From: Saccharothrix carnea
GTDB taxonomy: Bacteria; Actinomycetota; Actinomycetes; Mycobacteriales; Pseudonocardiaceae
Assembly: GCF_003014735.1 (NCBI RefSeq)
Contig: NZ_PYAX01000006.1
Span: 248,001 to 312,000 of the forward strand
Reading direction: 5' to 3'
Length of the DNA stretch: 64,000 bases
Shown here piece by piece: positions 11,629 through 55,731 of the stretch; the stretch's first letter is position 1; each line of letters starts with the position of its first letter. The translations under genes were made by a program, and so were the position numbers. The notes below the pieces were generated by a model. The model made no database searches, was not told the origin of the DNA, and saw nothing but the letters and a program-made list of their open reading frames with translations.

Positions 11629-11644
11629 TTCGACTCGCGCGGGG

Positions 11645-32671: not shown

Positions 32672-33094
32672 TCAGTAGAGGATTCGCGCTTGCGAAAAGT
32701 CCTCGTCATCGCCCCTTTCGGGGGGCAGTTGACCACTGGGGCCCGCCACCGCGCGGGAACCGAGCACCGGGCGCGGTGGAACCGCATTTGCATTCGCGTC
32801 CGTTTGCTCTCGCGATTTCTCGGGCGAGAGCAGTTCGGCGCCCGGTGGCAACTGCTCCACCGGCAGGCCGCGGTGCTGCCGGAAACCGGTGGCGACCCGC
32901 TGGACGTCCGGTGACGTGGGCGCGTGCCGGTCGGGCTGGACCTGCCGCGCCTTGGCCTGCTCGGCGAGCCGCCGGTTCCGCTCGCGCTGGGCGGCGTTCT
33001 TCTCGCCCGCGGCGGCGGCCGCGCGCCGGCCTCTGGTCACCGCCGCTTCGAGGTCGGAGCGGAACCGGGCGAAGGCCTCCGGGATGCCGGTCAT
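32672..33094 (-). CDS. Small ESX-associated protein with acidic C-terminal tail
   Basis: 140 aa, no recognised family. A charged helical N-terminal half (FARFRSDLEAAVTRGRRAAA; AAQRERNRRLAEQAKARQ) leads to a Pro-rich part and the tail DDEDFSQARILY. This is the plan of the 151-aa protein at 24878 (tail DDDDDFGGQSWLT). The start is ATG at 33094, 16 bp after the stop of the Hsp70-like gene with GGGGA in between; an in-frame GTG lies at 33106. It is probably cotranscribed with that gene. The reading frame ends before the esxU promoter region. Confidence 0.7.
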   Translation of the reverse strand: MTGIPEAFARFRSDLEAAVTRGRRAAAAAGEKNAAQRERNRRLAEQAKARQVQPDRHAPTSPDVQRVATGFRQHRGLPVEQLPPGAELLSPEKSREQTDANANAVPPRPVLGSRAVAGPSGQLPPERGDDEDFSQARILY

Positions 33095-33110
33095 CACATT
33101 CCCCACAAAG

Positions 33111-34907: not shown

Positions 34908-34963
34908 CCGTCATCCCCTCGTCGGCCGGGGCGGGCCTGCATATGCATACCTCACCGCACCGA

Positions 34964-35081: not shown

Positions 35082-37832
35082 TCACCCCACCTTGGGCCGG
35101 ATGCGGTCCGCCGCGCTGTGCCCCAGGTCGTCCAGCACGACCACCGCTTCCTGCCACCTCCGCCGCGCCGCCGCACCGTCGCCCGCGGCGTGGAGGGTGT
35201 CGCCGAGGCGGTCCAGGGTCATCGCCTCCTCGAAGCGCTCCCCCACGGCGCGGTACTGCGCGAGGGCGTTCTCGTAGCAGCGCGCGGCTTCGCCGAGGTC
35301 GTCCAAGTGGTGGTTGATGTAGCCCAGGCTGTCCCAGATGGCCGCCTCGCCGGCCTGGTCGTCACCGGTCTCCTGGTGCAGCGCCAACGACCGCAGGCAG
35401 TGGTCGAGCGCGGTGCGGTGGTCGCCGAGCAGGGCGTGCAGCCAGCCGACGGAGTTCAGCATGCGGCGGTAGGACGCGGCGTCACCCAGTTCCTCCCGGA
35501 GCCGGAGGGCCTGTTGGGCGTGGTGCAGCGCGTCGGCGTGCCGTTCGTCGTACTCGTAGAGGATTGCGAGGTCGCCGTGCAGGTTGGCCCGGGCCCTCGG
35601 GTCACCCGCCGCCAGCTCCAGCGCCTGTTCCAAGTGCGATTCCGACTCGCCGGAGTGCTCCAGCGTGCGGTGGATCCGCCCCAGCCCGCGGTGGGCCGTC
35701 GCCTGCGCCGCGTCGTCGCCGAGCCGGCGGGCCGCGTCGAGGGCGAACCGGTGACACCGCAGGGCCTCCTGCCAGTAGCCCCGCCTGCCGCAGAACGACG
35801 TGATCGACGCGGTGAGCCGCCAGGTGTGCGCGTCGAAGCCGTGCCGGAACGCGTGCTCGACCACCCGGAACACCGTGGCCTTCTCCAGTTCGAGCCAGGC
35901 CAGCGCGTCGTCGTGGTCGGCGGCACCGGTGACGACGACGCCCGGCAGCGGCGGGTCGAGGACGACTTCGGTGTCGCGGTAAGGGGCGCGCACGCTCTCC
36001 ACGGCCGCCACCGCGTGCAGGTAGTGGTCGAGCAGGCGGTGGACGGCGGCGCGGCGCGCGGGCTCGTCGACGCGCTCGGCGACCACCTCGCGGGCGTAGG
36101 TGTGCACGAGGTCGTGCAGCGAGAAGCGGCTCGGGCGGTGCTCGACCAGCAGGTTCATCCCGCTCAGCTCGCGCAGGCAGGCACGCGCCTCGCGCACCGC
36201 GATCCCGGCCAGGCTCGCGACCGCCGGGACCGACACCTCCGGGCCGGGGTGCAGGCCCAGCAGCTCGAACACCCGGCGCGCGGCCGGGGTGAGCCGTTCG
36301 GACGACCAGGAGAAGACGGCCTTGACGCTGACCGCGTCGTCACCGATGTCCAGGGCGTCCAGCCTCGTGCGCTCGTCGGCGAGCTCGTCGGCCAGCGCCC
36401 GCAGCGGGAACTCCGGGTGCGCGGCGGCCCGTGCGGCGACCACCGCCAACGCCAGCGGCAGCCCCGCGCAGTGCTCGACCACGTCCCGCGCGGCCCCGGG
36501 CTCGGCCGCCACCCGGTCCGCGCCGAGCTGCCGTTCGAGCAGCGCGAACGCGTCGGCGTCGGCCAGCACGCCCAGCGCCAGCGGCCGGGCGCCTTCCCGG
36601 ACGATCAGCCCGTCCAGCCGGCGGCGGCTGGTCACCACGGTGAAGCACCCCGGTCCGCTCGGCAGCAGTGGGCGGACCTGCTCGCTGTCGCAGGCGTTGT
36701 CCAGCACGACCAGGATCCGCCGGTCGGCCATCGCGCCCCGGTACAGGTTGACCAGCTCGTCCGACGTCGACGGCAGCCCTTCCCGCGCCACGCCCAACGC
36801 GCCGAGGAAACCCCGCAGCGCCTCGTCGGGGCCCACCGGGGCGCCGCTCGGGTCGAACCCGCGCAGGTCGACGTAGAGCTGCCCGTCCGGGAACCGGTCG
36901 CCGTGCCGCGCGGCCCAGTGCAACGCCAACGTGGTCTTGCCGATGCCGGCCGCACCGTCGACCGCGGAGATCACCACCGCGCCGCCGTCCGCCGGTGCCG
37001 CGTCGAGCAGCCCGCCCAGCACGTCCAGCTCGTGCCGGCGACCGACGAAGAACCTGGTGTGCACCGGGAGCTGCCGCGGCACGGGCACCGCCTGCCCGCC
37101 AGCCGCGGCCGTCGGCCCGGACGTCAGGATCCGCTGGTACAGCTCCTGCAACCGCGGCGCCGGGTCCACGCCGAGCTCGTCGACCAGCCGCCCGCGCAGC
37201 GCGTCGTAGGCGGCCAGCGCCTCCGCCTGCCGGTCGGACCCGGCCAGCGCCAGCATGAACTGGCCCCAGAACCGCTCCCGCAACGGGTACCGCCCGGTCA
37301 GCACGCGCAACTCGGCGACCAGCTCGCCCGTCCGGCCCGCCGCCAGGTCGGCGTCGATCCGGCGTTCCAGGGCGGTCAGCCGCTCCTCCAGCAGCGGCGC
37401 CACGGCCTCGGCGTGCAGCACGTCCGACCGCACGTCCGACAGCGGTTCGCCCCGCCACAGCGCCAGCGCCTCGGCGAACCGGCCCCGCCCGGCCAGGTCG
37501 CGGAACCGGGTGAGGTCGAGTGCGTCGGGCGGGACCTCGGCCAGGTAGCCGTTCGTGGTCGTGCGCACGACGTTCGCCTCGCCCAACGCCTGGCGCAGCC
37601 GCCGCACCACCATCTGCAACGTCGCCTTGGCCCGGTCCGGGTTCGGCACCCGGCCGTCCCACAGCCGGTCGACCAGGTCGTCCGCCGGCACCGGCCGGTT
37701 GGCGTCCAGCAGCAGGACCGCCAACAGCAGCCGGGCCCGACCGGCGGGAACCGGCACGAGCACGTCGCCGTGCCAGACCTCCAGCGGACCGAGGACGTTG
37801 AACCTGGTCGTCGTCTTCCCCACCGCGGTCAT
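35082..37832 (-). CDS. SARP regulator, array member 1 (BTAD-NB-ARC-TPR)
   Basis: 916 aa. N-terminal winged helix (FNVLGPLEVWHGDVLVPVPA) and BTAD domain to about 245 (LRERFWGQFMLALAGSDRQA), with the array signature WRGEPLSDVRSDVLHAEAVA. NB-ARC has Walker A DGAAGIGKTT near residue 294, Walker B RILVVLDNACD, and LVTSRRR-type sensor VVTSRRRLDG. Residues about 600-900 are TPR repeats (AQATAHRGLGRIHRTLEHSG; ANLHGDLAILYEYDERHADA). ATG at 37832 overlaps the member-2 stop (ATGA), so members 2 and 1 are translated together. Last gene of the array. SARPs activate secondary-metabolism or export genes; the ESX setting suggests a local target. Confidence 0.93.
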   Translation of the reverse strand: MTAVGKTTTRFNVLGPLEVWHGDVLVPVPAGRARLLLAVLLLDANRPVPADDLVDRLWDGRVPNPDRAKATLQMVVRRLRQALGEANVVRTTTNGYLAEVPPDALDLTRFRDLAGRGRFAEALALWRGEPLSDVRSDVLHAEAVAPLLEERLTALERRIDADLAAGRTGELVAELRVLTGRYPLRERFWGQFMLALAGSDRQAEALAAYDALRGRLVDELGVDPAPRLQELYQRILTSGPTAAAGGQAVPVPRQLPVHTRFFVGRRHELDVLGGLLDAAPADGGAVVISAVDGAAGIGKTTLALHWAARHGDRFPDGQLYVDLRGFDPSGAPVGPDEALRGFLGALGVAREGLPSTSDELVNLYRGAMADRRILVVLDNACDSEQVRPLLPSGPGCFTVVTSRRRLDGLIVREGARPLALGVLADADAFALLERQLGADRVAAEPGAARDVVEHCAGLPLALAVVAARAAAHPEFPLRALADELADERTRLDALDIGDDAVSVKAVFSWSSERLTPAARRVFELLGLHPGPEVSVPAVASLAGIAVREARACLRELSGMNLLVEHRPSRFSLHDLVHTYAREVVAERVDEPARRAAVHRLLDHYLHAVAAVESVRAPYRDTEVVLDPPLPGVVVTGAADHDDALAWLELEKATVFRVVEHAFRHGFDAHTWRLTASITSFCGRRGYWQEALRCHRFALDAARRLGDDAAQATAHRGLGRIHRTLEHSGESESHLEQALELAAGDPRARANLHGDLAILYEYDERHADALHHAQQALRLREELGDAASYRRMLNSVGWLHALLGDHRTALDHCLRSLALHQETGDDQAGEAAIWDSLGYINHHLDDLGEAARCYENALAQYRAVGERFEEAMTLDRLGDTLHAAGDGAAARRRWQEAVVVLDDLGHSAADRIRPKVG

Positions 37833-40537
37833 GCCTGTTCTCCGAGTTCGCGTCGCACATCGTCGGCCGCAGGGTGCCGGAGGTCCTCGAAGATGGCCAG
37901 CGCGTTGCGCAGCGCGGCACGGGCCGCTTCCCGGTCACCCGCGCGCCGGTGCGTCTCGCCGAGGTCCCGCCACACGCCGGCTTCGTAGTACCGGTCTCCC
38001 GACCGCGCGAAGAGGTCCAGGCTCTTGCGGATCATGGTCAGCGCGTCGTCCAACCGGCCCAGTTCGCGGTAGGCGAGGCCCAGGGTGCCGAGTGCGGCGG
38101 CGTGCCCGGGCAGATCGGTCAGCTCCTCGTACCGCTCGATCGCGTCCGCCGCGTGGCGCACCGCCTCCTCGTGCCGGCCGAGCAGGTGGTAGCTCCACGA
38201 ACTGGACGTGAGCGCGCGGGCCTGCCCGTGCGCGTGGCCCAGTTCCCGGAACAGCTCCAGCGCGTCCAGTTGCAGCGGCAGCGCCTCGGCGGACGCCTGG
38301 TGGACCCCGCTGAGGTTCACCAGCACGTAGCCCTCCGAGACGCGGTCGCCGAGGTCGTGGAACAGGCGCCGGGCGGTGTCGAGGTGCTCTCCCGCCTCGG
38401 TCCACCGGTGCAACAACGTCGCCGCCCGGCCCAACCCGCGGTGCATGCCGGCCTGCCCGCGGACGTCGCCGAGCCGTTCCGCCGCGCGCAACGCCTTCCG
38501 GCACGCCTCCAGCCACTCCGGCCAGTGCCCGCTGGAGTGGAAGTACGTCGCCGTGCACTCGGGGATCAGCCAGGCTCGGGCGTCGGACGCGTGCTCCGCC
38601 GCGTGGCCCGCCACCGCGAGCAACGTCCGGAACTCGGCGCGGTACCAGTCGAGGGCGGCGGCGTGCGACTCGACGCGCTCGGGGCGCACGCCCGGTCGCG
38701 GCGGTGGCGGGTCCACCGGCTTGCGCTCGGGGTAGAGCGCCTTGTCGGCCTGCTCGGCGGTGTGCAGGAAGTGGTCGACCAGGCGGGTACCGGCCTCGCG
38801 GAGGTCGGCGGCCGGGTGCTGGTCGGCGACCAGGTCGGCGGCGTACGCGCGGAGCAGGTCGTGCAGCGCGTACCGGCCCGGCACGTGCTCGGCGACCAGG
38901 TGCGCCCGCGTCAGCTCCACGAGCGCACGGCGTGCCTCGGTGACCGGGAGCGCGGCCAGGCTCGCGGCGGCGGCCGCGGAGAGGTCCGGGCCGGGGTGCG
39001 GGCCGAGCAGCCGGAACAGCCGGGCGGCGGTGTCGCCCAGGTACCGGTAGGACCACGAGAAGACGTCCCGGACCGACGTCAGCCGGTCACCGGTGTCCAG
39101 CGCGTCGAGCCGCGTGTGGTCGGCCGCCAGTTCGTCGGCGAACGCGCGCAGCGGCGCCGAGGGTTCCGCCGCCGTGCGGGCCGCCACGACGGCCAGCGCC
39201 AGCGGCAGGCCCGAGCACCGGGCGACGAGCCGGTCCACCGCTTCGGGCTCGACCGCCGACCGGGCCCGTCCGACCCCCGCCTCCAGCAGCGCCACGGCCT
39301 CGTCCCGGTCGAGCAGGTCCAGCCGGACCGGCCGGGCGCCTTCCCGCACGACCAGGCCGGTGAGCCGGTCGCGGCTGGTGACCAGCACCAGGCAGCCCGG
39401 CGTGCCGGGCAGCAGCGGGCGGACCTGGTCGGCGTCACGGGCGTTGTCCAGCACCACCAGGACCTTCCGGTCGGCCAGCAGGCTGCGGTACAGCGACGCC
39501 TGCGCCTGCACCGCCGGCGGTATCCGGGACGGCGGCACGTCGAGCGCTTCGAGGAAGCCGCGCAGGGCGTCCGTCGGCGACATCGGCCGGCCGGACGGGT
39601 CGTACCCGCGCAGGTTGACGTACAGCTGGCCGTCCGGGAACCGCGGTGCGACCTCGTGCGCCCAGTGCACCGCGAGCGCCGTCTTCCCGATGCCCGCCGG
39701 GCCGTTGATCGCCGAGATCCCCACCGTGGAGCCGGAGACGGCGGCGTCCAGCTCGCGCAGGGCGCGGTGACGTCCGACGAAGATCCGCGGCCGGACGGGC
39801 AGCTGGCGCGGTACCCCGGCGCGGTGCGGCGGCACGGCCGGCTCGTCGGTCAGGACCCGCTGGTGCGCCTCGCGCAGCGCCGGACCCGGTTCGACCCCGA
39901 GTTCCTCGGCCAGCAGCGAACGCACCTCCCGGTAGGCGGCCAGCGCCTCCGCCTGCCGCTCCGACCGGTACAGCGCCAGCACCAGCTGCGCCCAGAACCG
40001 CTCCCGCAACGGGTGCCGCCGGGTGAGCACCCGCAGCTCCTCCACCACCTCCGGCGCCCGACCCGCCGCCAGGTCGGCGTCGAGGCGTTGTTCGAGCACG
40101 CCCAGTCGGTGCTCCAGCAGCGGCACGACCTCCTCGCGGTGCAGCAGGTCCGACCGCACGTCCGGCAGCGGGTCACCGCGCCACACGGCCAGCGCCTCGG
40201 CGTACCGGCACTGCCCGGCCGACGCGCGGTACCGGTGCAGGTCCAGGCTCCCCGGAGGCACCTCGGCCACATACCCACCGGTGGCGGTGCGGATCACGTT
40301 CGCCGCACCGAGCGCCCGGCGCAGGCGGGCGACCGCCATCTGCAACGTCGCCCTGGCCCGCTCGGGGTTGGGCGGCTCGCCGTCCCACAGCCAGTCGACC
40401 AGCCGGTCGGAGGGCACGACCTCGCCGGCGCGCAGCAGCAGAGCGGCCAGCAGCGTCCGGCCCAGGCCCGCGGGCACCGGCACGCCACGGCCGTCGACCC
40501 GCACCCGGAGCGGGCCGAGGATTGCGAACTCGATCAC
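37829..40537 (-). CDS. SARP regulator, array member 2 (BTAD-NB-ARC-TPR)
   Basis: 902 aa. Winged helix FAILGPLRVRVDGRGVPVPA and BTAD with WRGDPLPDVRSDLLHREEVV. NB-ARC has Walker A NGPAGIGKTALAVHWAHEV near residue 281 and Walker B KVLVVLDNARDADQV. TPR repeats fill the C-terminal third (GQAGMHRGLGRAATLLHRWT; GHAAALGTLGLAYRELGRLD). The gap of 62 bp after member 3 has no clear promoter, so read-through is likely. It overlaps member 1 by 4 nt. Compared with member 1 the BTAD and NB-ARC cores are strongly alike, which points to tandem duplication. Confidence 0.93.
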   Translation of the reverse strand: MIEFAILGPLRVRVDGRGVPVPAGLGRTLLAALLLRAGEVVPSDRLVDWLWDGEPPNPERARATLQMAVARLRRALGAANVIRTATGGYVAEVPPGSLDLHRYRASAGQCRYAEALAVWRGDPLPDVRSDLLHREEVVPLLEHRLGVLEQRLDADLAAGRAPEVVEELRVLTRRHPLRERFWAQLVLALYRSERQAEALAAYREVRSLLAEELGVEPGPALREAHQRVLTDEPAVPPHRAGVPRQLPVRPRIFVGRHRALRELDAAVSGSTVGISAINGPAGIGKTALAVHWAHEVAPRFPDGQLYVNLRGYDPSGRPMSPTDALRGFLEALDVPPSRIPPAVQAQASLYRSLLADRKVLVVLDNARDADQVRPLLPGTPGCLVLVTSRDRLTGLVVREGARPVRLDLLDRDEAVALLEAGVGRARSAVEPEAVDRLVARCSGLPLALAVVAARTAAEPSAPLRAFADELAADHTRLDALDTGDRLTSVRDVFSWSYRYLGDTAARLFRLLGPHPGPDLSAAAAASLAALPVTEARRALVELTRAHLVAEHVPGRYALHDLLRAYAADLVADQHPAADLREAGTRLVDHFLHTAEQADKALYPERKPVDPPPPRPGVRPERVESHAAALDWYRAEFRTLLAVAGHAAEHASDARAWLIPECTATYFHSSGHWPEWLEACRKALRAAERLGDVRGQAGMHRGLGRAATLLHRWTEAGEHLDTARRLFHDLGDRVSEGYVLVNLSGVHQASAEALPLQLDALELFRELGHAHGQARALTSSSWSYHLLGRHEEAVRHAADAIERYEELTDLPGHAAALGTLGLAYRELGRLDDALTMIRKSLDLFARSGDRYYEAGVWRDLGETHRRAGDREAARAALRNALAIFEDLRHPAADDVRRELGEQA

Positions 40538-40599
40538 CAGACCCCCCTAATGCCGTGACCGGGAACCCTCGCCGCGTCTGCCGACGCCCGGCAGGGCGG

Positions 40600-42513
40600 C
40601 TAGCGGGTTGTCCCGGCACGGACCAGCAGCACGAAGGCCTCCCACTCGGCGTCGAGCCAGGCGGAGGCGTCCTCGGCCGACGTGAACTCGTCCGGCCGCA
40701 CGCAGTCGTGCGCGGGCAGGACCGGCGCGGCCTCGTCGGTCAGCCACCGCACGGCGTTGGCCGCGGTGTGCGCGTACCAGGTCAGCGCACGCCGGTCGGC
40801 GGCGTCGACGTCGTCCCCCTCGGCGTCGGCCAGCTCGGCCGCGTACCGCCGCAGCAGCGGGTGCATCGAGTACCGGCCCGACGCGTGCCCGGACAGCAGG
40901 TGCGCGGCGGTCAGCTCCGCGATCGCGGCCTCCGCGTCGGGCACGGGCAGGCCGGCCACCGCCGCCGCGGCGGACACCGACGAGCTCGGCACCCGGTGGT
41001 GGCCGAGCAGCCGGAACACCCGCGCCGCCATCGGACCCAGCAGCCGGTACGACCACGAGAACACCGTGCACAGCCGGGCGTCCTCCTCGCCCGTGTCCAT
41101 GTGGTCCAGCAGCTCCTGGTCCACCGCCAACTGGTCGGCGACGTCCGCCAGCGTGAAGTGCGGGTTGACCGCGGCCCGCGTCGCCACCACCGCCAACGCC
41201 AGCGGCAGGCCGGCGCACAGCTCCACCAGCGTGCCGGTCGCCGCCGCCTCCTCGGCCAACCGCTCCGGGCCGAGCCTGCGCTCCAGCAGGGCACGCGACT
41301 CGACGTCGTCGAGCGGCTCCAGGGTGATCGAACGGGCGCCCAGGCCCGCGAGCCGGTCACGGCTGGTGACCACGACGAACGCGCCGTCCGGCACCAGGGG
41401 CCGCACCTGCTCGGCGTCACGGGCGTTGTCGAGCACGATCAGCAGCTTGCGGCCCTCGACCGCGCGGCGGAACGCGGCGACCTGGGCCTCGAACCCCGCC
41501 GGGACGGACGGCACGTCCAGCGCGTCCAGGAAACCCCGGAGCACCTCACCCGGCGGCACGGGCTCGGCGGACGGGTCGAACCCGCGCAGGTTCGCGTACA
41601 GCCGGCCGCCGGTGAACGCCTCCGCGGCCAGGTTCGCCCAGTGCACGGCGAACGCGGTCTTCCCGACGCCCGCCATGCCGCCGACCACCACGACACCCGG
41701 ACCCGCCTCGGCACCCGCGGACAGCTCGGCCGACTCCTCGTCACGGCCGACGAAGTACGGCCCGCGCGAGGGCAGCAGGTGCGGCACCACCGACCGCGCC
41801 GGCACCAGGTCCGGGTTCGCGAGCAGGATCCGCTCGTGCAGCTCGCGCAACTCGCGCCCCGGCTCGACGCCCAGTTCGCCGGCGAGCACCTCCCGTGCCT
41901 CGCGGTAGGCCGCCAACGCCTCCGCCTGCCGCTCCGACCGGTACAGCGCGAGCATCAGCTGCGCCCGGAACCGCTCGCGCAACGGGTGCGCCCTGGTCAA
42001 CGACCGCAGCTCGGCGACCAGCTCGTGCGCCGCGCCCGCGGCCAGGTCGGCGTCGATCCGCCGGGCCAGCGCGTCGAGGCGTTCCTCCTCCAGCGGCACG
42101 ACCTCCAGCCGGTGCAACGCGTCCGACCGCACGTCCGACAGCGGCGCGCCACGCCACAGCGCGAGCGCCTCCGCGTACCGCCCGGCGTCCACCAGGGACC
42201 GGAACCGGTGCAGGTCCAGCGCGTCGGCGGGCACGTCGGCGAGGTAGCCGCCCGCGGCGGTGCGGACCACGTTCGCCTGGCCGAGCGCGCGGCGCAGCCT
42301 GGTCACGGTCATCTGCAGCGTGGCGCGGGCGCGGGCCGGGTCGGGCGCACCGCCGTCCCACAGCCGGTCGACCAGTTCCCCGGCGGTGACGACCTCGCCC
42401 GCCCGCAGCAGCAACGCGGCCAGCAGGACCCGTGACTTGCCCGCCGGGACGGCCACCGGCCGGCCCGCGTGCCTGACTTCGAGGGGTCCGAGCACCCTGA
42501 ACTCAGTCGTCAC
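40600..42513 (-). CDS. SARP regulator, array member 3 (BTAD-NB-ARC, no TPR)
   Basis: 637 aa, about 270 shorter than its neighbours. Winged helix FRVLGPLEVRHAGRPVAVPA, BTAD with WRGAPLSDVRSDALHRLEVV, Walker A GGMAGVGKTAFAVHWANLA near residue 279, Walker B KLLIVLDNARDAEQV. The protein stops (VLLVRAGTTR) shortly after the winged-helix end of NB-ARC and the start of a helical segment (EDASAWLDAEWEAFVLLVRA), where the others continue into TPRs. The stop is followed at once by member 2, with no TPR remnant, so the loss is clean. It starts 54 bp after member 4. Without the TPR sensor domain it may answer to a different signal or act with a partner. Confidence 0.92.
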   Translation of the reverse strand: MTTEFRVLGPLEVRHAGRPVAVPAGKSRVLLAALLLRAGEVVTAGELVDRLWDGGAPDPARARATLQMTVTRLRRALGQANVVRTAAGGYLADVPADALDLHRFRSLVDAGRYAEALALWRGAPLSDVRSDALHRLEVVPLEEERLDALARRIDADLAAGAAHELVAELRSLTRAHPLRERFRAQLMLALYRSERQAEALAAYREAREVLAGELGVEPGRELRELHERILLANPDLVPARSVVPHLLPSRGPYFVGRDEESAELSAGAEAGPGVVVVGGMAGVGKTAFAVHWANLAAEAFTGGRLYANLRGFDPSAEPVPPGEVLRGFLDALDVPSVPAGFEAQVAAFRRAVEGRKLLIVLDNARDAEQVRPLVPDGAFVVVTSRDRLAGLGARSITLEPLDDVESRALLERRLGPERLAEEAAATGTLVELCAGLPLALAVVATRAAVNPHFTLADVADQLAVDQELLDHMDTGEEDARLCTVFSWSYRLLGPMAARVFRLLGHHRVPSSSVSAAAAVAGLPVPDAEAAIAELTAAHLLSGHASGRYSMHPLLRRYAAELADAEGDDVDAADRRALTWYAHTAANAVRWLTDEAAPVLPAHDCVRPDEFTSAEDASAWLDAEWEAFVLLVRAGTTR

Positions 42514-42567
42514 CCGGCCCCCCTTGCACGGCCACGAGTGTACCGGCGCCGATCACGGGCCGTGACG

Positions 42568-45279
42568 TCACGACGACGGTCGGCTGATCTCATCGCGCAA
42601 CGCCTCGGCCGCCGCGGGATCCAGCTCGGTGAAGATCGCCAACGCCTGCCGGGCCGCCTCCTCCGCCTCGCCGACCGCGCCCCGGTCCCTCTCGGCCCGC
42701 GCGAGCCGGCGCAGCGTGTTCGCCTCTTCCTCCCGCGCACCGGTCTCGCGCCACAGGGCGACCGCCGCGCGGAACCGCTCGACCGCCTCGGCCGGCCTGC
42801 CCGAGTGGTGCAGGGCGTGCCCGAGGCTGTCGAGGGCGTGCGCCTGGCCGGACCGGTCGCCCTCCGCGCGGAACACCTCCAGCGCCTCGCCGCAGCACGC
42901 CAGGGCGGCGGCGTGGTCGCCCAGCAGGGTGCGGAACCAGCCGACCGCGTTCACCGCGCCCGCCACCGTGCACGGGTCACCGGTGCCGCGCGACAGCTCC
43001 AGCGCGCTCACGCACTCGCGCAACGAGTCGGCGTACCGGCCCTGCCGCTCGAACACCGCCGCCAACCCGCGGTGCGCGCGGGCCCGGCCGGACGCGTCGC
43101 CCAGCTCGGCGGCCAGCTCCAGCGCACGGCGGTAGTGGCCCACCGCCTGGTCCGGCTCACCCTCCTCGGTCAGCGCGAGGCCAAGCTCGCGGTGTGCCCG
43201 GACCTGCGCATCCAGGTCGCCGAGCCGTTCACCCGACGCCAACGCGATCCGCTGCGTCGCCACCAGGTCCTGCCAGTGGCCGCGGCGCCGGAAGTAGGCG
43301 GCGCCCGCCCACGCCAGCCGCCACGCGTGCGCGGGGAAACCGCGGTCGTGCGCACGCCCGACGAGGGTCACCAGCGCCTGGTGCTCGGCCTCGAACCAGG
43401 CCAGCGCCTCGCGGTCGTCGGCGAACGGGGTCAGGACCACCGCGTCGTCGGCCGGGTCGAGGTCGAGCGGGTCGCGCCGCGGGTGGAGCAGCCGGTCGGC
43501 CCGGTGGGCGGTGTGCACGTAGTGGTCCAGCACTCGGCGCAGCACCTCGTGCCGCTCGGCGTCGTCGTAGTGCTCGCGCGCCTGGTCGGCCGCGTACAGG
43601 CAGACCAGGTCGTGCGACGTGATCCGGTCGGGCGAGACCTGGGACAGCAGCCTTGACCGCACGAGCTCCCGCAACGCCTCGCGGGCTTCCGCCAGTGGCA
43701 GGGCGGCCAGGCTCGCGACCGCTTCCGCGGTCCGCTGCGGACCGGGGTGCAGGCCGAGCAGGCGGAACACCCGCACGGCGGGCTCGCTCAACTGGCTGCT
43801 GGACCAGGACAGCACGGCCCGCACGTCGGTGGTCGGGTCACCGCCGTCCAACGCCGCCAGCCTCGTGCGCTCGTCGGCGAGTTCGGCCGCGAGCGCGCTC
43901 AACGGCAACGAGGTGTCCGCCGCGGCACGGGCCGCGACGACCGCCAGCGCGAGCGGCAACCCGCCGCAGTGCGCCACCAGCGCGGCGAACGCCTCCGGTT
44001 CGGCGTCCGACCGCGACGCGCCGAGCTGCCGGGCCAGGAACGCCCGCGCCTGCGACTCGGTCAGCAGGTCGAGCGCCAGCGGCACCGCTCCCTCGCGCAC
44101 GACCAGGCCGCTCAGGTCGTTGCGGCTGGTGACCAGCACGAACGACCGTGCGCCGCCGGGCAGCAGCGGCCGGACCTGGTCGCTGTCGCGCGCGTTGTCC
44201 AGCACCACCAGCACCCGCCGGTCGGCCAGCGCGGTCCGGTAGTGCGCGGCGCGGGCGTCCAGCCCCACCGGCACCCGGTCCGCCGCCACGCCGAGCGCCT
44301 CCAGGAAACCGCGCAGCGCCTGGTCCGGCGGCAACGGCTCGGCGACCGGGTGGAACCCGCGCAGGTCCACGTACAGCTGCCCGTCCGGGAACCGGTCGGC
44401 CACCTGGTTCGCCCACTGCACGGCCAGCGTCGTCTTGCCGACGCCCGCCGCACCACCGATCGCGGAGATCACCACGGCGCCCGCGTCGGCGTCCAGCAGG
44501 CCGGTCAGCTCGCGCAGCTCCTCCTCCCGACCGGCGAAGAAGCCGTTGGGCGACGGCAGCTGCCGCGGCACGGGCCGCGCGCCGAGCAGTTCCCGGTGCA
44601 GCCGCTGGACGTTCGGGCCCGGCACGACGCCCAGCTCGTCGGCGAGCCGGGACCGCAGCTCCTCGTACGCGGCCAGCGCGAGGTCCCGCCGACCGGCTCG
44701 GGACAGGGCCAGCATCAGCAGGCCCCAGAACCGCTCCCGCAACGGGTACCGGCGGGTCAGCGACCGCAGCTCGGGCACCAGCTCGTGCGCCGCGCCCGCC
44801 GCCAGGTCCGCCTCGATCCGCCGTTCCCGCACCACCAGGTGCTCCTCCAGCAGGGGCGCGACGTCCTCGGCGTGCAGCACCGGCGACGGCACGTCCGACA
44901 GCGGCTCGCCCCGCCACAGCTCCGACGCCGCCGCGAACTCGCCCGCCGCCGCCAGCTCGCGGAACCGCTCGAGGTCCAGCGCGCCGGGCGGGACCTCGGC
45001 CAGGTAGCCGTTCGCGGTCGTGCGCACCACGTTCGCCTCGCCCAGCGCCCGCCGCAGCCGCGTCACGACCATCTGCAGCGTCGCCCTGGCCCGGCGCGGG
45101 TTCGGCGCGTCACCGTCCCACAGCCGCTCGACCAGGTCGTCCACCGCCACCGGCCGGTTCGCGCGCAGCAGCAACGTCGCCAGCAGCACGCGGGCGCGGC
45201 CCGCCGGCACCGGCACGGGCCGGTCGCCCAGCCGCACGTCCAGCGGTCCGAGCACGCCGAACCGGGTGTCCGCCGTCAT
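42568..45279 (-). CDS. SARP regulator, array member 4 (BTAD-NB-ARC-TPR)
   Basis: 903 aa. Winged helix FGVLGPLDVRLGDRPVPVPA and BTAD with WRGEPLSDVPSPVLHAEDVA. NB-ARC has Walker A GGAAGVGKTTLAVQWANQV near residue 276 and Walker B RRVLVVLDNARDSDQVRPLL. TPRs cover about 640-890 (ALELAAELGDASGRARAHRG; HALDSLGHALHHSGRPAEAV). ATG at 45279. It follows a 338-bp gap with a terminator and a three-repeat CTCAC element, so it probably begins its own transcript, covering members 4, 3, 2 and 1 (gaps 54, 62 and -4 bp). Confidence 0.93.
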   Translation of the reverse strand: MTADTRFGVLGPLDVRLGDRPVPVPAGRARVLLATLLLRANRPVAVDDLVERLWDGDAPNPRRARATLQMVVTRLRRALGEANVVRTTANGYLAEVPPGALDLERFRELAAAGEFAAASELWRGEPLSDVPSPVLHAEDVAPLLEEHLVVRERRIEADLAAGAAHELVPELRSLTRRYPLRERFWGLLMLALSRAGRRDLALAAYEELRSRLADELGVVPGPNVQRLHRELLGARPVPRQLPSPNGFFAGREEELRELTGLLDADAGAVVISAIGGAAGVGKTTLAVQWANQVADRFPDGQLYVDLRGFHPVAEPLPPDQALRGFLEALGVAADRVPVGLDARAAHYRTALADRRVLVVLDNARDSDQVRPLLPGGARSFVLVTSRNDLSGLVVREGAVPLALDLLTESQARAFLARQLGASRSDAEPEAFAALVAHCGGLPLALAVVAARAAADTSLPLSALAAELADERTRLAALDGGDPTTDVRAVLSWSSSQLSEPAVRVFRLLGLHPGPQRTAEAVASLAALPLAEAREALRELVRSRLLSQVSPDRITSHDLVCLYAADQAREHYDDAERHEVLRRVLDHYVHTAHRADRLLHPRRDPLDLDPADDAVVLTPFADDREALAWFEAEHQALVTLVGRAHDRGFPAHAWRLAWAGAAYFRRRGHWQDLVATQRIALASGERLGDLDAQVRAHRELGLALTEEGEPDQAVGHYRRALELAAELGDASGRARAHRGLAAVFERQGRYADSLRECVSALELSRGTGDPCTVAGAVNAVGWFRTLLGDHAAALACCGEALEVFRAEGDRSGQAHALDSLGHALHHSGRPAEAVERFRAAVALWRETGAREEEANTLRRLARAERDRGAVGEAEEAARQALAIFTELDPAAAEALRDEISRPSS

Positions 45280-45544
45280 GCCGGGTTCACCTCCGCGCCG
45301 CCCCGTCGTTCCCCCGCAGCATGTGTACCGGACCTCGCGTCCCGCGTCGCCGGAGATTCCCGCACGGCGGTGAGTCCGCCGTGAGCCGTTTGTGAGGTCG
45401 TTCGCGCACAGTGGTGACGTTCACCGCCGCGACCCCCAGGGGCCGCGGGGCCTGGCTGGAGATCGAGGGGGGAAGCCGGTCCCGGTGGCAGGTGGGTCGT
45501 CGGGGGGCGACGCGCCGGCCCGGCCCACGCCGCGGTGACGACCG
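45280..45544. other. Gap upstream of SARP member 4
   Basis: Part of the 338-bp gap between members 5 and 4. It holds the CTCAC-repeat element (45370-45412) and a GTACACATG-type -10 candidate near 45320. No gene was seen. Confidence 0.55.
45370..45412 (-). promoter_or_regulatory. SARP-type operator upstream of array member 4
   Basis: In gene orientation: ACTGTG (45412-45407), ten bases, CTCAC (45396), CTCAC (45385), CTCAC (45374), repeating every 11 bp. After the last heptamer (CTCACCG) an 8-bp spacer leads to GAATCT, a possible -10. The first three elements match the spacing found before member 6 exactly. Confidence 0.6.
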
Positions 45545-45590
45545 GACCGCGGGCGTCCCCGACTCCTCCCCGTCGGGTACGCCCGCGGTC
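45545..45590 (-). terminator. Terminator after SARP member 5
   Basis: GACCGCGGGCGT (45545-45556) pairs perfectly with 45579-45590, with a further CCGAC/GTCGG pairing inside. It lies 27 bp past the member-5 stop. Confidence 0.75.
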
Positions 45591-45617
45591 GTCGCTCCCA
45601 TGCCGACCGCGGGCCGT

Positions 45618-48341
45618 TCACCCCAGTGCCGCCAGCCGGGCGCGGATCTCGGCCTCCTGCGGGAAACCGGCCTTGACGCACAGGTCCAGGGCGTCGGCCA
45701 GGTGGGTCCGGGCGGTGCCCGGGTCGCCGAGCCGCAGCAGCAGGTCCGCGTAGTTGAGGTGGGTCCGCATGGCCGACAGGCTGTTCAGGTCGCCGACACC
45801 CCGCGCGAAGATCCCCTCGTAGGTCGCCGCGGCGTCGGCCAACCGGCCGAGGCCGACGAGGACCTGCGCCAACGTCTCCTCCACCGCGCCGAGCGACACC
45901 CGGCCGGGCAGCTGCCGGCACAGCTCGACGGCCCGCAGGCACACCTCCAGCGCCTGCTCGTGCCGACCGGCGTGGCTCAACGTCCCGGCGTGGTTGTTCA
46001 ACGCCAGCGCCAGCCCCGGCAGGTCGCCCAGCCCCGCCCACAGCCCCACCGACCGCTCGCCGTACCGCACGGCCTCGTCGTAGCGGCCGAACGACTCGTA
46101 GGCGCCCGCGAGCTCCAGGCAGCTGGCCGCCATGCCGCGCACGTGGCCGATCTCCTCCCGCAGCGCCAACGCCCGGTGCAGGTGCTCCAGAGCCTCCTCG
46201 AACCCCATGTTGCGGGTGATGCCGCCGAGCGTGTGCAGGGCCACCGCCTCGGCGAACCGGTCACCCAGGTGACGCGCGGAGGCCAGCGCGATCTCGGTGA
46301 ACCGCCGCCATTCGGTCCAGACGTAGTGGCGGTACAGGTAGCCCCACAGCGCGGTCGGGATCTGCCACGCGTGCTCGTGCCTGCCGTGCTCGCCCGCGTG
46401 CGGGATGACCAGCCGCAGGTTCGGCATCTCGCCGTCGATCCAGGCCACCGCCTCCGCACCGTCGGCGAACGACAGCAGGGGCACGGTGTCGGCGATCGGG
46501 GTCAGCGGCAGCTCGGTGCGGGTGGTGCGCAGCAGCCGGTCCGCGCGGTCGATGTTGTGCAGGTAGAAGTCCAGCAGCCGCTCCACCGCGCGCCCGCGCT
46601 CCTGCTCGGGCTCCTCCGCCTTCGCCGAGGTCTCCGCGTGCAGCCGCAGCAGGTCGTGCAGCACGAACCGGCCCGGCCGCGGCTGCTCCAGCAGGTGCGC
46701 CCGGAACAGCTCGTCCACCGAACGGCCGGCCCGCTCGACGTCCACGCCGGCCAGCGCGGCCACCGCCTCGACCGTGAAGTCGCGGCACGGCGCCACGCCC
46801 AGCAGCCGGAACACCCGTTGCGCGGCCGTCGTCAACGCCCGGTACGACAGGCAGAACGTGCTGCTGACGGCCGAGGCCGGATCGCCGGCGACCACCAGCT
46901 GGGCGAGCGGGTCCCCGGCGCGCAACGCCGTCACGTAGTCGGCCACGCCGCGCGGCTCGCCGGCCAGGTTCGCGGCGGCGACCCGCAGCGCCAGCGGCAA
47001 CCCCGCGCACACCCGCACCAGCTCGGCGACCGCGTCCGGCTCGGCGTCCACCCGCTCCGCGCCCAGGATTCGGCGCAGCAGGTCCACCGCCTCGGCGCGG
47101 GCGAGCGCGTTCAGCCGGACCAGCACGGCGTCGTCGAGCGCGACCAGCCCGCGCAGGTCGTTGCGGCTGGTGAGCACGGCGAAGTTGCCCGCGCCCGATG
47201 GCAGCAGCGGACGCGCCTGCGCCACGTCGACCACGTTGTCCAGCACGATCAGGATTCGGCGGTCGGCCAGCACCGACCGGTACAGCGCGACCTGCTCGTC
47301 CAGCGCCGCGGGCACCCGCTCCGCGGGCACGCCCAGCGCGGCGAGCAGCTGGGTCAGCGCCTGCTCCGACGTCAACGGCGGGAACTCCGGGTCGTGGCCG
47401 CGCAGGTTGACCAGCAGCTGCCCGTCCGGGAAGTCCGCCGCCACCCGGTGCGCCCAGTGCACGGCCAGCGCGGTCTTGCCCAACCCGCCCATGCCGGTGA
47501 TCGCGACCGCCGTGGCGCCCCGCGCCCGCGCCGCCAACCGGTCCAGCGCGCCCACCTCCTCACGCCGCCCGGTGAAGCTGCGCACGTCCGCGGGCAGCTG
47601 CCGGGGCGCGATAGCCCCACCCGGCGGCTCCGGCACCGCGCCCAGCGCCAGCCGGTGCGCCTCGCGCAACTGCTCGCCCGGGTCCACGCCCAGCTCGTCG
47701 GCCAGCAGTGCGCGGACCTCCCCGAACGCGGCCAGCGCCTCCGCCGTGCGGTCCGAGCGGTGCAGGGCCAGCACCAGCGCCGCCCAGAACGGCTCGCGCA
47801 GCGGGTGCTCCCTGGTCAGCGCGCGCAGCTCCGGCACCAGCTCGGCGGCCCGACCCGCGTCCAGGTCGGCCGCGATCCGGCGCTCCAGCACCGCCAGCCG
47901 CTCCTCCAGCAGCGGCGCCACCTCCTCGGCGTGCAGCACGTCCGACCGCACGTCCGACAGCGGCGTGCCGCGCCACAGCGCCAGCGCGTCGGCGAACCGG
48001 CCCCGCGCCGCCAGGTCGCGGAACTCGTGCAGGTCCAACGCACCCGGCACGACGTCGACCAGGTAGCCGTGCGTCGCGGTGCGCACGACGGTCGGGTCGC
48101 CCAACGCCTGACGCAGCCGCGCCACCACCATGTGCAGCGTCGCCTTGGCCCGCTGCGGGTTGGGCTGGTCGCCGTCCCACAGCCGCTCGACCAGCTCGTC
48201 GACCGTCACCACCTGGCCCGCCCGCAGCAGCAGCGCGGCCAGCAGCGCCCGGCCCCGGCCGGCGGGCACCGCGACCGGCTCGTCGCCCCGCCACACCTCC
48301 AGCGGTCCGAGGACGGCGAAGCGGGTCACCGGCGCGGTCAC
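45618..48341 (-). CDS. SARP regulator, array member 5 (BTAD-NB-ARC-TPR)
   Basis: 907 aa. Winged helix FAVLGPLEVWRGDEPVAVPA and BTAD with WRGTPLSDVRSDVLHAEEVA. The NB-ARC Walker A is GMGGLGKTALAVHWAHRVA near residue 281 and differs from the other members (GLGKT in place of GVGKT/GIGKT); Walker B is RRILIVLDNVVDVAQ. The TPR part (about 650-900) has AVALHTLGGITRNMGFEEAL and CLELAGAYESFGRYDEAVRY. Its start overlaps the member-6 stop by 4 nt, so 6 and 5 form a unit that ends at the terminator 45545-45590. Confidence 0.93.
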   Translation of the reverse strand: MTAPVTRFAVLGPLEVWRGDEPVAVPAGRGRALLAALLLRAGQVVTVDELVERLWDGDQPNPQRAKATLHMVVARLRQALGDPTVVRTATHGYLVDVVPGALDLHEFRDLAARGRFADALALWRGTPLSDVRSDVLHAEEVAPLLEERLAVLERRIAADLDAGRAAELVPELRALTREHPLREPFWAALVLALHRSDRTAEALAAFGEVRALLADELGVDPGEQLREAHRLALGAVPEPPGGAIAPRQLPADVRSFTGRREEVGALDRLAARARGATAVAITGMGGLGKTALAVHWAHRVAADFPDGQLLVNLRGHDPEFPPLTSEQALTQLLAALGVPAERVPAALDEQVALYRSVLADRRILIVLDNVVDVAQARPLLPSGAGNFAVLTSRNDLRGLVALDDAVLVRLNALARAEAVDLLRRILGAERVDAEPDAVAELVRVCAGLPLALRVAAANLAGEPRGVADYVTALRAGDPLAQLVVAGDPASAVSSTFCLSYRALTTAAQRVFRLLGVAPCRDFTVEAVAALAGVDVERAGRSVDELFRAHLLEQPRPGRFVLHDLLRLHAETSAKAEEPEQERGRAVERLLDFYLHNIDRADRLLRTTRTELPLTPIADTVPLLSFADGAEAVAWIDGEMPNLRLVIPHAGEHGRHEHAWQIPTALWGYLYRHYVWTEWRRFTEIALASARHLGDRFAEAVALHTLGGITRNMGFEEALEHLHRALALREEIGHVRGMAASCLELAGAYESFGRYDEAVRYGERSVGLWAGLGDLPGLALALNNHAGTLSHAGRHEQALEVCLRAVELCRQLPGRVSLGAVEETLAQVLVGLGRLADAAATYEGIFARGVGDLNSLSAMRTHLNYADLLLRLGDPGTARTHLADALDLCVKAGFPQEAEIRARLAALG

Positions 48342-51109
48342 GGCAGACCGGCCACTTTCGCCCGCAACGCCGCCACGTTGCCGTGGCCGACCTGTTCCAA
48401 GATGTCCAGCGCCGCCTGCCAGACCTCACGGGCCGCGTCGTGGTCGCCCGCCAGCACGTGCGTGTCGCCCAGCCGTTGCAGCGTCGCGGCTTCCTCCCAC
48501 CGGTCGCCGCTCTCCCGGTACCGCGGCAACGCCTCCCGGTAGCAGCGGACGGCCTCGTCCAGCTCGCGCAGCCGGTGGTGCACGTAACCGAGGCTGTCCC
48601 ACGTCGCCGCCTCCGCCAGCAGGTCGTCGACCTCGCGGCACAGCTCCAGCGCCCGGCCGCAGTCGGCCAGCGCGCGGCGCAGGTCCTCGCCCAGCATCGC
48701 GCGGGCCCAGCCGACGGCGTTGAGCGCGCGGGCCGTGCCGGGGAGGTCGCCCAGCTCCTCGAACACCGCCAGCGCCTGCTCGGCGTGGTGCAGCGCCTCG
48801 GGCAGCCGGTCCCACGCCTCGTACAGCCCGCCGAGGTGGCGGTGGATGTGCGCCTGGCTCTGCCGGTCGCCCAGCTCGCGCACCAGGTCCAGCGCGGCGG
48901 TGAGGTGCGTCTCGGACTCGGCGAACCGGCGCAGCACCACGCAGATCCGGCCGAGGCCGCGGTGCGTCGAGGCGAGCGCGACCCGGTCGTCCAGCCGCCG
49001 TGCCGCGGCCAGTGCGACCTCCAAGCACCTCGCCTGCTCGTGCCAGAACGACCGCAGGCGGGCGAACGCCGTGGTGGCCCACGCCAGCTGCCAGGCGTGG
49101 ATGTCGAAACCGTGCGCGGCGGCGTGGCCGACCGCGGCGGACAGCGACGCGTGCTCCAGGGTGAACCAGGCCAGCGCGTCGGCCCGCCCGGTCAGCTCCG
49201 TCACCACCGCGCCGGGCGCGGGCCGCGCGAGCCGCACCTCCTCGCGCTGCGAGTACAGCAGCCGGTCGGCCGCGTCCGCGGTGTGCAGGTAGTGGTCGAG
49301 CACCCGCCGCAGGGCTTCGCGCGTGCCGTCCCGGTCGTCGTGCGCGGCGACCAGGTCACGCGCGTAGGCGTGCACCAGGTCGTGCAGCGTGAAGCGGCCC
49401 GGCACCGGCTCGGCGATCAGGTGCAGCCTGCCCAGCTCGCCCAGGGCCTGGCGGGCGGCGCGCACCGGCACACCGGCCAGGCTCGCCGCCGCCGGGATCG
49501 ACACCTCAGGCCCGGCGTGCACGCCCAGCAGCAGGAACATCCGGGCCGCGGCCGGGCTCAACCGCTCGTAGGACCACGAGAACACCGTCTTGACGCTGGT
49601 CGTCGCCTCACCCGTGTCGAGCGCCGCCAGCCTGGTCCGCTCGTCGGCCAGCTCACCGGCCAACGCCCGCAGCGTGAAGCCGGGGTGCGCCGCCGCCCGT
49701 GCCGCGACCACGGACAGCGCCAGCGGCAGCCCCGCGCAGTGGCCGATCAGCTCGCGCACCGCGTCCGGCTCGGCGCCGACCCGCTCCGCGCCGAGCTGCC
49801 GCACCAGCAACGCGGTCGCCTCCTCGTCCGACAGCACGCCGAGCGGCAACGGCCGCGCGCCCTCGCGCACCACCAGCCCGTCGAGCTGGTTGCGGCTGGT
49901 CACCAGGGCCAGGCAGCGCGAACCGCTCGGCAGCAGCGGCCGGACCTGCTCGCTGTCCGCGGCGTTGTCCAGCACCACCAGCACCCGGCGACCGGCCAGC
50001 AGGCTCCGGTACAGCGCGACCTGCTCGTCCAACCCGGACGGCACCCGCTCCGGCAGCACGCCCAACGCGCACAGGAAACCGCTCAACGCCTCGCCCGGGC
50101 TCGTCGGCACGCCCGTCTGGTCGAACCCGCGCAGGTTCACGTACAGCTGCCCGTCCGGGAACCGGTGCGCGTTCCGGCTCGCCCACCGCAACGCCAACGC
50201 CGTCTTGCCCACGCCCGCCGTGCCGTGGATCGCCGAGACGACCACCGCGCCCTCCTGACCGGCCGGCGCCGAGTCCAGCAGCGCCGACAACACGGCCAGT
50301 TCGCGCTCGCGCCCGACGAAGAGCCGGGTGTGCATCGGCAGCTGCCTCGGTGCGGGCACGGCCCGCGGTGCGCTCGGGGTGCCCGAAGGCACGCCCTCGG
50401 CGAAGTCCGGTGCGGCGGTGAGGATCCGCTGGCGCAGCTCCTGCAACCGCGGTCCCGGGTCGACGCCAAGCTGCTCGGCCAGCAGCCCGCTCACCGACCG
50501 GTAGGCGGCCAGCGCCTCGGCCTGCCGGTCGGAGCGGGACAGCGCTTCCATCAGCTGACCCCAGAACCGCTCCCGCAACGGGTGCTCGCGGGTCAGCGAC
50601 CGCAGCTCGGGCACCACCTGCGCGGCCCGACCCGCCGCCAGGTCCGCGTCGAGCCGCCGTTCCAGCGCGTCGAGCCGTTCCTCCAGCAGCGGCGCGACGT
50701 CCTCGCCGTGCAGCAGGTCGGACGGCACGTCCGACAGCGGCTCGCCACGCCACAGGTCCAGCGCCTCGGTGAGCCGGTCGCGGTCCACCAGCTCGCGGAA
50801 CCGGTGCAGGTCGAGCGCACCCGGCGGCACGTCCGCCGCGTACCCGCCGGTGGCGGTGCGCACCACGTTCGCCGTGCCGAGCGACTGGCGCAGCCGGGTC
50901 ACCACCATGTGCAACGTCGCCCTGGTCCGCGCCGGGTCGACCGACCGGCCGTCCCACAGCCGGTCCACCAGGACGTCCATCGGCACCACGCTGCCCGCGC
51001 GGAGCAGCAGGCTGGCCAGCAGCACCCGCGCCTTGCCCGCGGGCAGCGCCACCTGCCTGCCGCCGTGCCAGACCTCGAGGGGCCCGAGCACCTTGAACTC
51101 GGTCTCCAC
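48338..51109 (-). CDS. SARP regulator, array member 6 (BTAD-NB-ARC-TPR)
   Basis: 923 aa. Winged helix FKVLGPLEVWHGGRQVALPA and BTAD with WRGEPLSDVPSDLLHGEDVA. Walker A is GTAGVGKTALALRWASRNA near residue 295; Walker B is RRVLVVLDNAADSEQVRPLL. TPRs are at about 650-910 (ALASTHRGLGRICVVLRRFA; SQAHIHRHLGGLYEAWDRLP). The start is GTG at 51109, after AAGGGGG; the frame is open to 51244 but the extra part has no SARP sequence and covers the promoter. Members 1 and 6 are alike along their whole length. It begins the array in transcription order, 297 bp after eccC. Confidence 0.93.
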   Translation of the reverse strand: METEFKVLGPLEVWHGGRQVALPAGKARVLLASLLLRAGSVVPMDVLVDRLWDGRSVDPARTRATLHMVVTRLRQSLGTANVVRTATGGYAADVPPGALDLHRFRELVDRDRLTEALDLWRGEPLSDVPSDLLHGEDVAPLLEERLDALERRLDADLAAGRAAQVVPELRSLTREHPLRERFWGQLMEALSRSDRQAEALAAYRSVSGLLAEQLGVDPGPRLQELRQRILTAAPDFAEGVPSGTPSAPRAVPAPRQLPMHTRLFVGRERELAVLSALLDSAPAGQEGAVVVSAIHGTAGVGKTALALRWASRNAHRFPDGQLYVNLRGFDQTGVPTSPGEALSGFLCALGVLPERVPSGLDEQVALYRSLLAGRRVLVVLDNAADSEQVRPLLPSGSRCLALVTSRNQLDGLVVREGARPLPLGVLSDEEATALLVRQLGAERVGAEPDAVRELIGHCAGLPLALSVVAARAAAHPGFTLRALAGELADERTRLAALDTGEATTSVKTVFSWSYERLSPAAARMFLLLGVHAGPEVSIPAAASLAGVPVRAARQALGELGRLHLIAEPVPGRFTLHDLVHAYARDLVAAHDDRDGTREALRRVLDHYLHTADAADRLLYSQREEVRLARPAPGAVVTELTGRADALAWFTLEHASLSAAVGHAAAHGFDIHAWQLAWATTAFARLRSFWHEQARCLEVALAAARRLDDRVALASTHRGLGRICVVLRRFAESETHLTAALDLVRELGDRQSQAHIHRHLGGLYEAWDRLPEALHHAEQALAVFEELGDLPGTARALNAVGWARAMLGEDLRRALADCGRALELCREVDDLLAEAATWDSLGYVHHRLRELDEAVRCYREALPRYRESGDRWEEAATLQRLGDTHVLAGDHDAAREVWQAALDILEQVGHGNVAALRAKVAGLP

Positions 51110-51136: not shown

Positions 51137-51202
51137 GCATAGGGCAGCACACCGACAGCCGAGAGTGAGCGTGAGTCGACTGTGAGTGCCGTCCGGCACA
51201 GT
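51137..51202 (-). promoter_or_regulatory. SARP-type operator and promoter upstream of array member 6
   Basis: In gene orientation: ACTGTG (51202-51197), ten bases, CTCAC (51186), six bases, CTCAC (51175), then a third CTCAC at 51169 out of phase. ACTGTG and the first two CTCAC have the same spacing as before member 4. TATGCT at 51142-51137 is a good -10 box, placing the start of transcription about 20 bp before the GTG. Confidence 0.6.
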
Positions 51203-51357: not shown

Positions 51358-51389
51358 CGGGAAGGCCCCGCCGGAGCGAGGCCTTCCCG
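51358..51389 (-). terminator. Terminator after eccC
   Basis: CGGGAAGGCC (51358-51367) pairs perfectly with 51380-51389 across a 12-nt loop, 17 bp past the eccC stop. Confidence 0.75.
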
Positions 51390-55411: not shown

Positions 55412-55570
55412 CTGACAGGCACCTCTTCAGCGTCGATCCCGTTGCGATCCTCCCGACCCGGCAGGACCGGGTGGACGGGCGGGCCACCAGCGGCAGGGGA
55501 GCCGCCCGCGGCAACCGACACTATGGCGCATCGGAACCCCGCACGACGGGGGGTCGGGCAAATCCGCGGT

Positions 55571-55590: not shown

Positions 55591-55731
55591 CGCGGAACGG
55601 CCCTGCCGCGATGGCCGCTGCCCTCATACTGGGCTCGCTCCTGGAGAGGGGCGGACGAAGCACGTCCGACCGGACCAATAAGGTCGGGGCGGAACCACGG
55701 CACACACTCATCGGGACTTTAGGGGGCGCTG

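Follow-up and report, generated by a model that had tools for sequence, protein, structure and literature searches.

A copy-variable tandem array of AfsR-like SARP regulators with a shared candidate operator occupies a fixed slot in an ESX-4-like secretion locus of Saccharothrix and Lentzea

Work on large SARPs has mostly treated them as individual switches of antibiotic gene clusters. In the 64,000-nucleotide stretch of the Saccharothrix carnea genome analysed here (hereafter the window), we find instead a copy-variable bank of such regulators with a shared candidate operator in a secretion locus: six SARP genes lie head to tail between eccC and the gene for an Hsp70-like Rv3446c-type protein, here called hsp. 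The closest described regulator is AfsR of Streptomyces coelicolor, which the array proteins resemble in their domain order of DNA-binding domain (DBD), BTAD, NB-ARC and TPR, in full-length similarity, in the use of 11-bp direct repeats and in an expected STAND/ATP switch; AfsR hence provides a described example of the geometry of the box, of the dimer and of the effect of ATP (PMC10936776). Unlike AfsR, the array is multi-copy, and its box reads CGCTCAC rather than CGTT(T/C)ATC, the AfsR repeat (PMC10972967); set against that repeat, the box of the array, CGCTCACA, has other bases at positions 3 and 7 and at its end. Of the AfsR helix residues that contact bases (PMC10936776), Arg92 is kept in the array type, and the position of Thr88 is Met. 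The two array proteins scanned with NF053617 (cut-off 1430 bits), SARP1 and SARP3, score 490.8 and 366.8 and are not AfsR orthologs by that model. SARP3, at about 600 aa and with SARP and NB-ARC parts, is like the medium SARPs CpkO and FdmR1 (PMC10972967), but groups with the large SARPs of the array; SARP-LAL regulators such as PimR share three heptameric repeats with 4-nt spacers, but differ in their C-terminal half and have as described targets (PMC10972967) a regulator and biosynthesis genes rather than their own array.

The array proteins themselves are of a known kind, and the novelty lies in their grouping as a bank, in the slot and in the candidate operator that they share. The preliminary description of this DNA knew of no described example, and we likewise found none listed in a literature search, covering few subscription papers, for type VII secretion in combination with SARP/AfsR, with BTAD plus NB-ARC, or with Saccharothrix or Lentzea. 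Two further systems invite comparison. In the mycobacterial ESX-4 locus, an Rv3446c-type gene, eccC, eccD, mycP and WXG100 genes lie near rplM-rpsI, and the window has the same set in the same surroundings, except that the SARP array splits the Rv3446c-type gene from eccC and that eccB and eccE are close by. Plant NLR clusters are tandem, copy-variable sets of NB-ARC sensor genes, as the array is, but in the array the output is a DNA-binding activation domain and the repeats are TPR, not LRR.

Open reading frames and Pfam agree with the preliminary description in placing six BTAD-NB-ARC paralogs, five of them with TPR, head to tail between the Rv3446c-type gene and eccC. BTAD (E 1e-31 to 9e-38), Trans_reg_C and NB-ARC are present in all six proteins and TPR in five, and the motifs WRG-x-PL-(S/P)-DV and GxxGxGKT (Walker A), both of which had been reported as common to the array, appear in 6/6 aligned sequences. 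Five proteins fit the large SARP type (OmpR-type DBD, BTAD, NB-ARC and TPR; about 900-1000 aa) and SARP3 does not; judging from its S. yanglingensis ortholog (L082), called at 914 aa, SARP3 may be an array-type large SARP that lost its TPR. The 4-nt overlap reported for the 2/1 gene pair holds, whereas that of SARP5 and SARP6 depends on the GTG start chosen, an alternative start leaving an 8-nt gap. The view that SARPs usually occur singly does not fit this genome of 8.9 Mb, which contains at least 55 BTAD matches (150 of 176 candidates scored). Because six of these adjoin head to tail within 16 kb, and because related species fill the same slot with SARPs, the array is not a chance arrangement.

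The slot is indeed SARP-specific, with gain, loss and broken copies. Among 24 Saccharothrix/Actinosynnema loci in which both ends are present (the window, L069-L090 and L109), the gap between eccC and hsp holds SARPs in 18 and none in six, with zero to six copies per slot, the six of the window being the maximum. Of 18 such Lentzea loci, 17 contain SARP genes; the remaining one, from L. albidocapillata, has only a 291-bp relic, which marks its array-less state as a loss. No SARP sequence was found in the gaps, each of 2-582 bp, of 24 outgroup loci (Umezawaea, Goodfellowiella, Labedaea, Kutzneria, Actinophytocola, Amycolatopsis and Solihabitans), and placement relative to the ESX genes, in the same slot in 35 loci, is therefore non-random. 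SARP-like sequence, counted as matches to SARPs of other genomes in gaps longer than 3 kb, makes up 248,994 of 261,322 bp (95%) in these 35 Saccharothrix and Lentzea loci, which rules out an insertion hot spot for any gene; the gap counts omit L144, which is rearranged, and loci cut by contig ends. Truncated or broken copies occur in L085, L111, L150, L151 and L153, and 3/96 array rows are inverted relative to the direction of eccC. Elsewhere in the array-less species, the top scores for array-type SARPs fall within the range of ordinary SARPs among the 45 candidates scored per genome, except for an Umezawaea endophytica gene scoring 1009 bits among those candidates, and no strong box (see below) lies near three array-type-candidate SARP genes of array-less species.

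The six proteins share 44-61% pairwise full-length identity, which reaches 63-78% in the DNA-binding part and drops to 30-51% beyond residue 520. In a quick IQ-TREE tree of 67 rows, of which 30 are from arrays, 34 are non-array SARPs of the window's genome and 3 are others, two changes of the array label suffice where shuffled labels take 22 on average, in line with the local expansion that had been proposed. A single array clade is compatible with this tree (p-AU 0.108), in which four other SARPs of the genome and two Solihabitans rows fall with or inside it; in a 142-row FastTree, rooted on one divergent row, ten different non-array SARPs fall inside. Since the two trees place different non-array SARPs within the clade, its exact border is unsure. 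Excluded from the row set are 13 loci, either duplicates of genomes already represented or put aside, and rows with fewer than 200 filled columns. Scores from a hidden Markov model did not make a clean array classifier either, array copies scoring as low as 736 bits. In the 142-row tree, subfamilies of array SARPs are common to Saccharothrix and Lentzea, so the multi-gene array is probably older than the split of the two genera. Pairwise dN/dS over 13 ortholog pairs is 0.17-0.71 for every domain; by this measure the array proteins are under purifying selection, and positive selection is ruled out for these pairs and domains. They nevertheless evolve faster than eccC, with 80-86% identity to the nearest relative vs 98% for eccC. 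By EccC, the nearest named relatives are Saccharothrix species (98% identity to Saccharothrix sp. S26), in a comparison from which records very close to the window may be missing. The window also contains, at 8604-11618, a seventh BTAD-TPR protein, which has AAA instead of NB-ARC matches and lies outside the array clade.

Upstream of the array genes we find direct heptamer repeats for which a period of 11 outscores periods of 8, 9, 10, 12, 13, 14 and 22. The typical Lentzea box reads CGCTCAC-N4-CGCTCAC-N4-CG(A/G)TCAC, and a TAnnCT -10 element often comes after it. As predicted sites, direct repeats of 11-bp period near promoters, a trait of large SARPs, are present in 33/73 array upstream regions at a TCAC triple score of at least 12, vs 0/43 upstream regions of the genome's other SARPs and 0/1460 shuffles. 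Across 20 Lentzea genomes, 28 of 30 exact matches to CGCTCACANNNCGSTCACA and 27 of 42 one-mismatch matches lie inside the eccC-hsp gaps, which total about 120 kb (a single triple box can yield two such matches). In 24 genomes of the window's genus, eight of ten exact matches to CTCACN6CTCACN6CTCAC fall in arrays, the other two being in array-less genomes. In the window's own genome, 45370-45396 is the sole exact CTCAC triple; exact TCAC triples number two, one at SARP4 and the other within a palindromic stretch. The proteins show a matching uniformity: a recognition helix of the form TL(Q/H)MxVxRLR is found in 75/96 array rows (one row having no letters there) and in 0/43 other SARPs of the genome. 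With helix and box both shared, array members would probably activate each other.

We suggest, and regard as fairly probable, that the array is an autoregulated and probably cross-regulating bank of AfsR-like STAND sensors in a fixed eccC-hsp slot. The bank would be largely self-contained, lying between a hairpin after eccC and hsp, and would consist of STAND sensors with a SARP output domain. A trait of AfsR-like large SARPs is inhibition through NB-ARC and TPR that ATP or phosphorylation lifts. By analogy with AfsR, each protein would stay off unless a signal is sensed, and ATP bound, by its NB-ARC/TPR part; the activated protein would then bind CGCTCAC-type direct repeats as a side-by-side dimer upstream of array genes and activate them. 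Given the common type of helix and box, paralogs would probably activate both themselves and each other, and one sensor could switch on the whole bank, whose repertoire would turn over by duplication, loss, truncation and inversion. As for output, transcription may continue into hsp and the WXG100 genes, or there may be a few outside sites, some of them beside large secreted proteins in Lentzea. A stronger version of this scheme, which we advance tentatively and consider rather unlikely, is a nearly closed circuit: any firing sensor would ignite the bank through a mostly private operator, with read-through into hsp-WXG100 and a few operators at RHS/Laminin_G proteins as its output, so that expression of type VII substrates and effectors would be an OR gate over many signals.

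Several observations weigh against this proposal or narrow it. Binding and activation are sequence-based predictions. The TCAC score was built from array boxes, and its comparison with other SARPs therefore tests this box alone; an unbiased heptamer score also peaks at period 11 in non-array SARPs, if more weakly (5.86 vs 6.60), which means that autoregulation may be common to SARPs. A strong box is absent from 40/73 array upstream regions, and in the window it is present at two of the six genes (SARP4 and SARP6), the other four being without a clear box of their own. Measured against the 8-bp spacing between last repeat and -10 element that characterises large SARPs, the distance from the last repeat to TANNCT is exactly 8 nt in 9 of 33 boxes and 5-7 nt in 11, with no TANNCT in the remaining 13. 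Read-through is likewise open to objection. The last SARP ends a median of 104 nt before hsp (in five species the distance is 44 nt, and in S. obliqua the two overlap), so that transcripts may extend through hsp and the WXG100 genes; however, a GC hairpin in the SARP1-hsp gap of the window could stop it, and a -10-like TA(T/A)GCAT within 60 nt of hsp in 40/46 loci means that read-through is not required in most of them. The motif is absent in L080, L083 (array-less), L084, L085 (array-bearing), L117 and L127.

Nor is the operator fully private. Over the 20 Lentzea genomes, 17 matches, two of them exact and 15 with a single mismatch, fall outside arrays vs one for a reversed control, an excess that makes real targets elsewhere possible; in the window's genus the count of outside matches (26) is close to that of the reversed control (22). 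The surroundings of 11 of the 17 Lentzea matches were inspected. One exact match lies just upstream of a solitary SARP-like gene in the array-less L. albidocapillata (L269:6332-8869), whose product has Trans_reg_C, NB-ARC and TPR, BTAD not being found by Pfam; the second overlaps the called 5' end of an opposite-strand NB-ARC/TPR/LuxR-type gene. In two genomes a box occupies the same place between a large RHS-repeat protein and an Indigoidine_A-type gene (L271:6673 and L272:6331), the L272 RHS-repeat protein also carrying Laminin_G_3, and the box at L275:6238 precedes a 1300-aa Laminin_G_3 protein by 77 nt. Other boxes are found upstream of a subtilase (L276) and at or in a DUF2252 gene (the L273 and L274 pair), and the remaining inspected matches show no clear pattern. 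The sites beside RHS/Laminin_G_3 proteins are suggestive leads for output, in a pattern that was noticed post hoc.

An alternative account is dedicated control, in which the SARPs of the array act directly at ESX promoters. The presence of the array inside the ESX locus in 35 loci speaks for it, as does the occurrence of SARP-like sequence no more than about 8 kb from eccC in 5/13 second type VII loci of the genus (L312, L316, L318, L319 and L320) where about one would be expected from 50 SARPs per 9 Mb, an estimate for loci that are related and not independent. The promoters themselves argue otherwise. We found no box in the rest of the locus vs 59 in the gap for 18 Lentzea loci, with up to two mismatches allowed, and none vs 14 for 7 Saccharothrix loci, in stretches that hold eccB, eccD, eccE and hsp in each locus and WXG100 gene A in 14/18 and 7/7, respectively; SARP sites at ESX promoters, tried as a candidate, were hence not found in these stretches. 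The eccC-eccD promoter is equally conserved with and without the array, so the array is not needed for such promoters, and the secretion locus is retained in seven species that lack the array genes, namely L118 and six from the genus of the window. We therefore consider direct control of ESX promoters, as envisaged in the preliminary description, improbable, and control of type VII secretion by the array in some form possible on the sequence evidence. As a separate observation, a second eccC-like stretch in S. deserti is incomplete and has a SARP about 8 kb off (L158:408-3071 and 10889-13486), and similar partial eccC matches occur in G002 and G019.

At the other extreme, abundant AfsR-like genes may have duplicated passively in an insulated gap, the secretion genes being mere neighbours and the boxes ordinary autoregulation carried along. 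Such genes are plentiful (about 50 BTAD matches in the window's genome; across 20 genomes, each with 45 candidates scored, the strong AfsR-like matches number 16-45 apiece), broken copies and losses are seen, and the weak period-11 signal of non-array SARPs fits too. The hairpin after eccC, by which the array would be transcribed as a separate unit, also favours insulation: it falls below each of 15 shuffles in 18/18 Saccharothrix array loci and 18/18 Lentzea loci, and in 4/6 array-less loci and 7/10 outgroup loci with a gap of at least 90 bp, so that it predates the array and is no peculiarity of array-bearing species. We nonetheless judge passive expansion unlikely, given that the dN/dS ratios indicate proteins held by selection, that hardly any other sequence settles in the gaps, and that subfamilies are kept across two genera. 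Finally, the array could be a surveillance bank akin to an NLR cluster, for phage, toxin or competitor signals, with diversifying TPR parts and with secreted proteins as the effector arm. The NB-ARC-TPR architecture, the turnover in copy number, the divergence of paralogs after residue 520 relative to the DNA-binding part, and the outside boxes beside RHS or Laminin_G_3 proteins are all consistent with this; against it, no domain has dN/dS above 1, and PADLOC returns generic TPR-protein models alone, by which a known anti-phage NLR-like defence system is rejected. We hold the surveillance reading to be very unlikely.

The features of the window are collected below. The locus is a type VII secretion locus, ESX-4-like, by the joint presence of eccC, eccD, mycP, eccB, WXG100 and Rv3446c-type genes; eccD, a mycP-like subtilase, eccB, eccE, WXG100 genes, rplM, rpsI and glmM are nearby, the mycP label resting on a Peptidase_S8 match and position.

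Features of the array and its surroundings (window coordinates)
Feature	Position	Strand	Remarks
WXG100 protein B	31855..32142	-	
WXG100 protein A	32214..32525	-	
Small conserved open reading frame	32672..33106	-	144 aa; no Pfam/NCBIfam match
hsp, Hsp70-like Rv3446c-type type VII secretion-associated protein	33111..34907	-	TIGR03931 T7SS_Rv3446c, 95.5 bits, cut-off 47.6
-10-like TATGCAT 5' of hsp	34943..34949	-	downstream border of the array
SARP1	35082..37832	-	916 aa, DBD-BTAD-NB-ARC-TPR (Pfam); AfsR 8k60 match over full length, E 2e-105
SARP2	37829..40537	-	902 aa, DBD-BTAD-NB-ARC-TPR; overlaps SARP1 by 4 nt
SARP3	40600..42513	-	637 aa, DBD-BTAD-NB-ARC without TPR; short orthologs also in L070, L071, L072
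SARP4	42568..45279	-	903 aa, DBD-BTAD-NB-ARC-TPR (Pfam)
Predicted SARP box upstream of SARP4	45370..45396	-	CTCAC x3 direct repeats, period 11
SARP5	45618..48341	-	907 aa, DBD-BTAD-NB-ARC-TPR; alternative start 48329
SARP6	48338..51109	-	923 aa counted from GTG at 51109; longest open reading frame reaches 51244; DBD-BTAD-NB-ARC-TPR
Candidate -10 TATGCT downstream of SARP6 box	51136-51141		by eye
Predicted SARP box upstream of SARP6	51171..51186	-	two repeats, CTCAC-N6-CTCAC
Strong GC hairpin directly 3' of eccC	51359..51388	-	putative terminator
eccC	51407..55411	-	EccCa and EccCb both above cut-off
eccC-eccD divergent promoter region	55412..55731	.	conserved with and without array in relatives; no box found

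Two neighbouring observations stand apart from the array. The stretch 24878-28580 has the look of a large type VII substrate accompanied by partner genes: small open reading frames of the same strand flank a protein of 982 aa that contains an internal WXG100-like domain. In the WXG100 region (31855-32525), WXG100 protein A is 80% identical to that of S. tamanrassetensis vs 66% to that of G020, among the nearest relatives by EccC; other genes keep the species order, unlike this one, and an exchange of the WXG100 pair is possible.

The array illustrates that location within a locus need not imply control of that locus. We consider it plausible that it is a combinatorial or multi-sensor system, as was first suggested for it, whose clearest DNA target is the array itself. 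The zero to six copies found among species amount to natural knock-outs, and together with a compact operator they would make sensor diversification, the cross-activation of STAND paralogs and a possible signal control of type VII secretion testable in soil actinomycetes.

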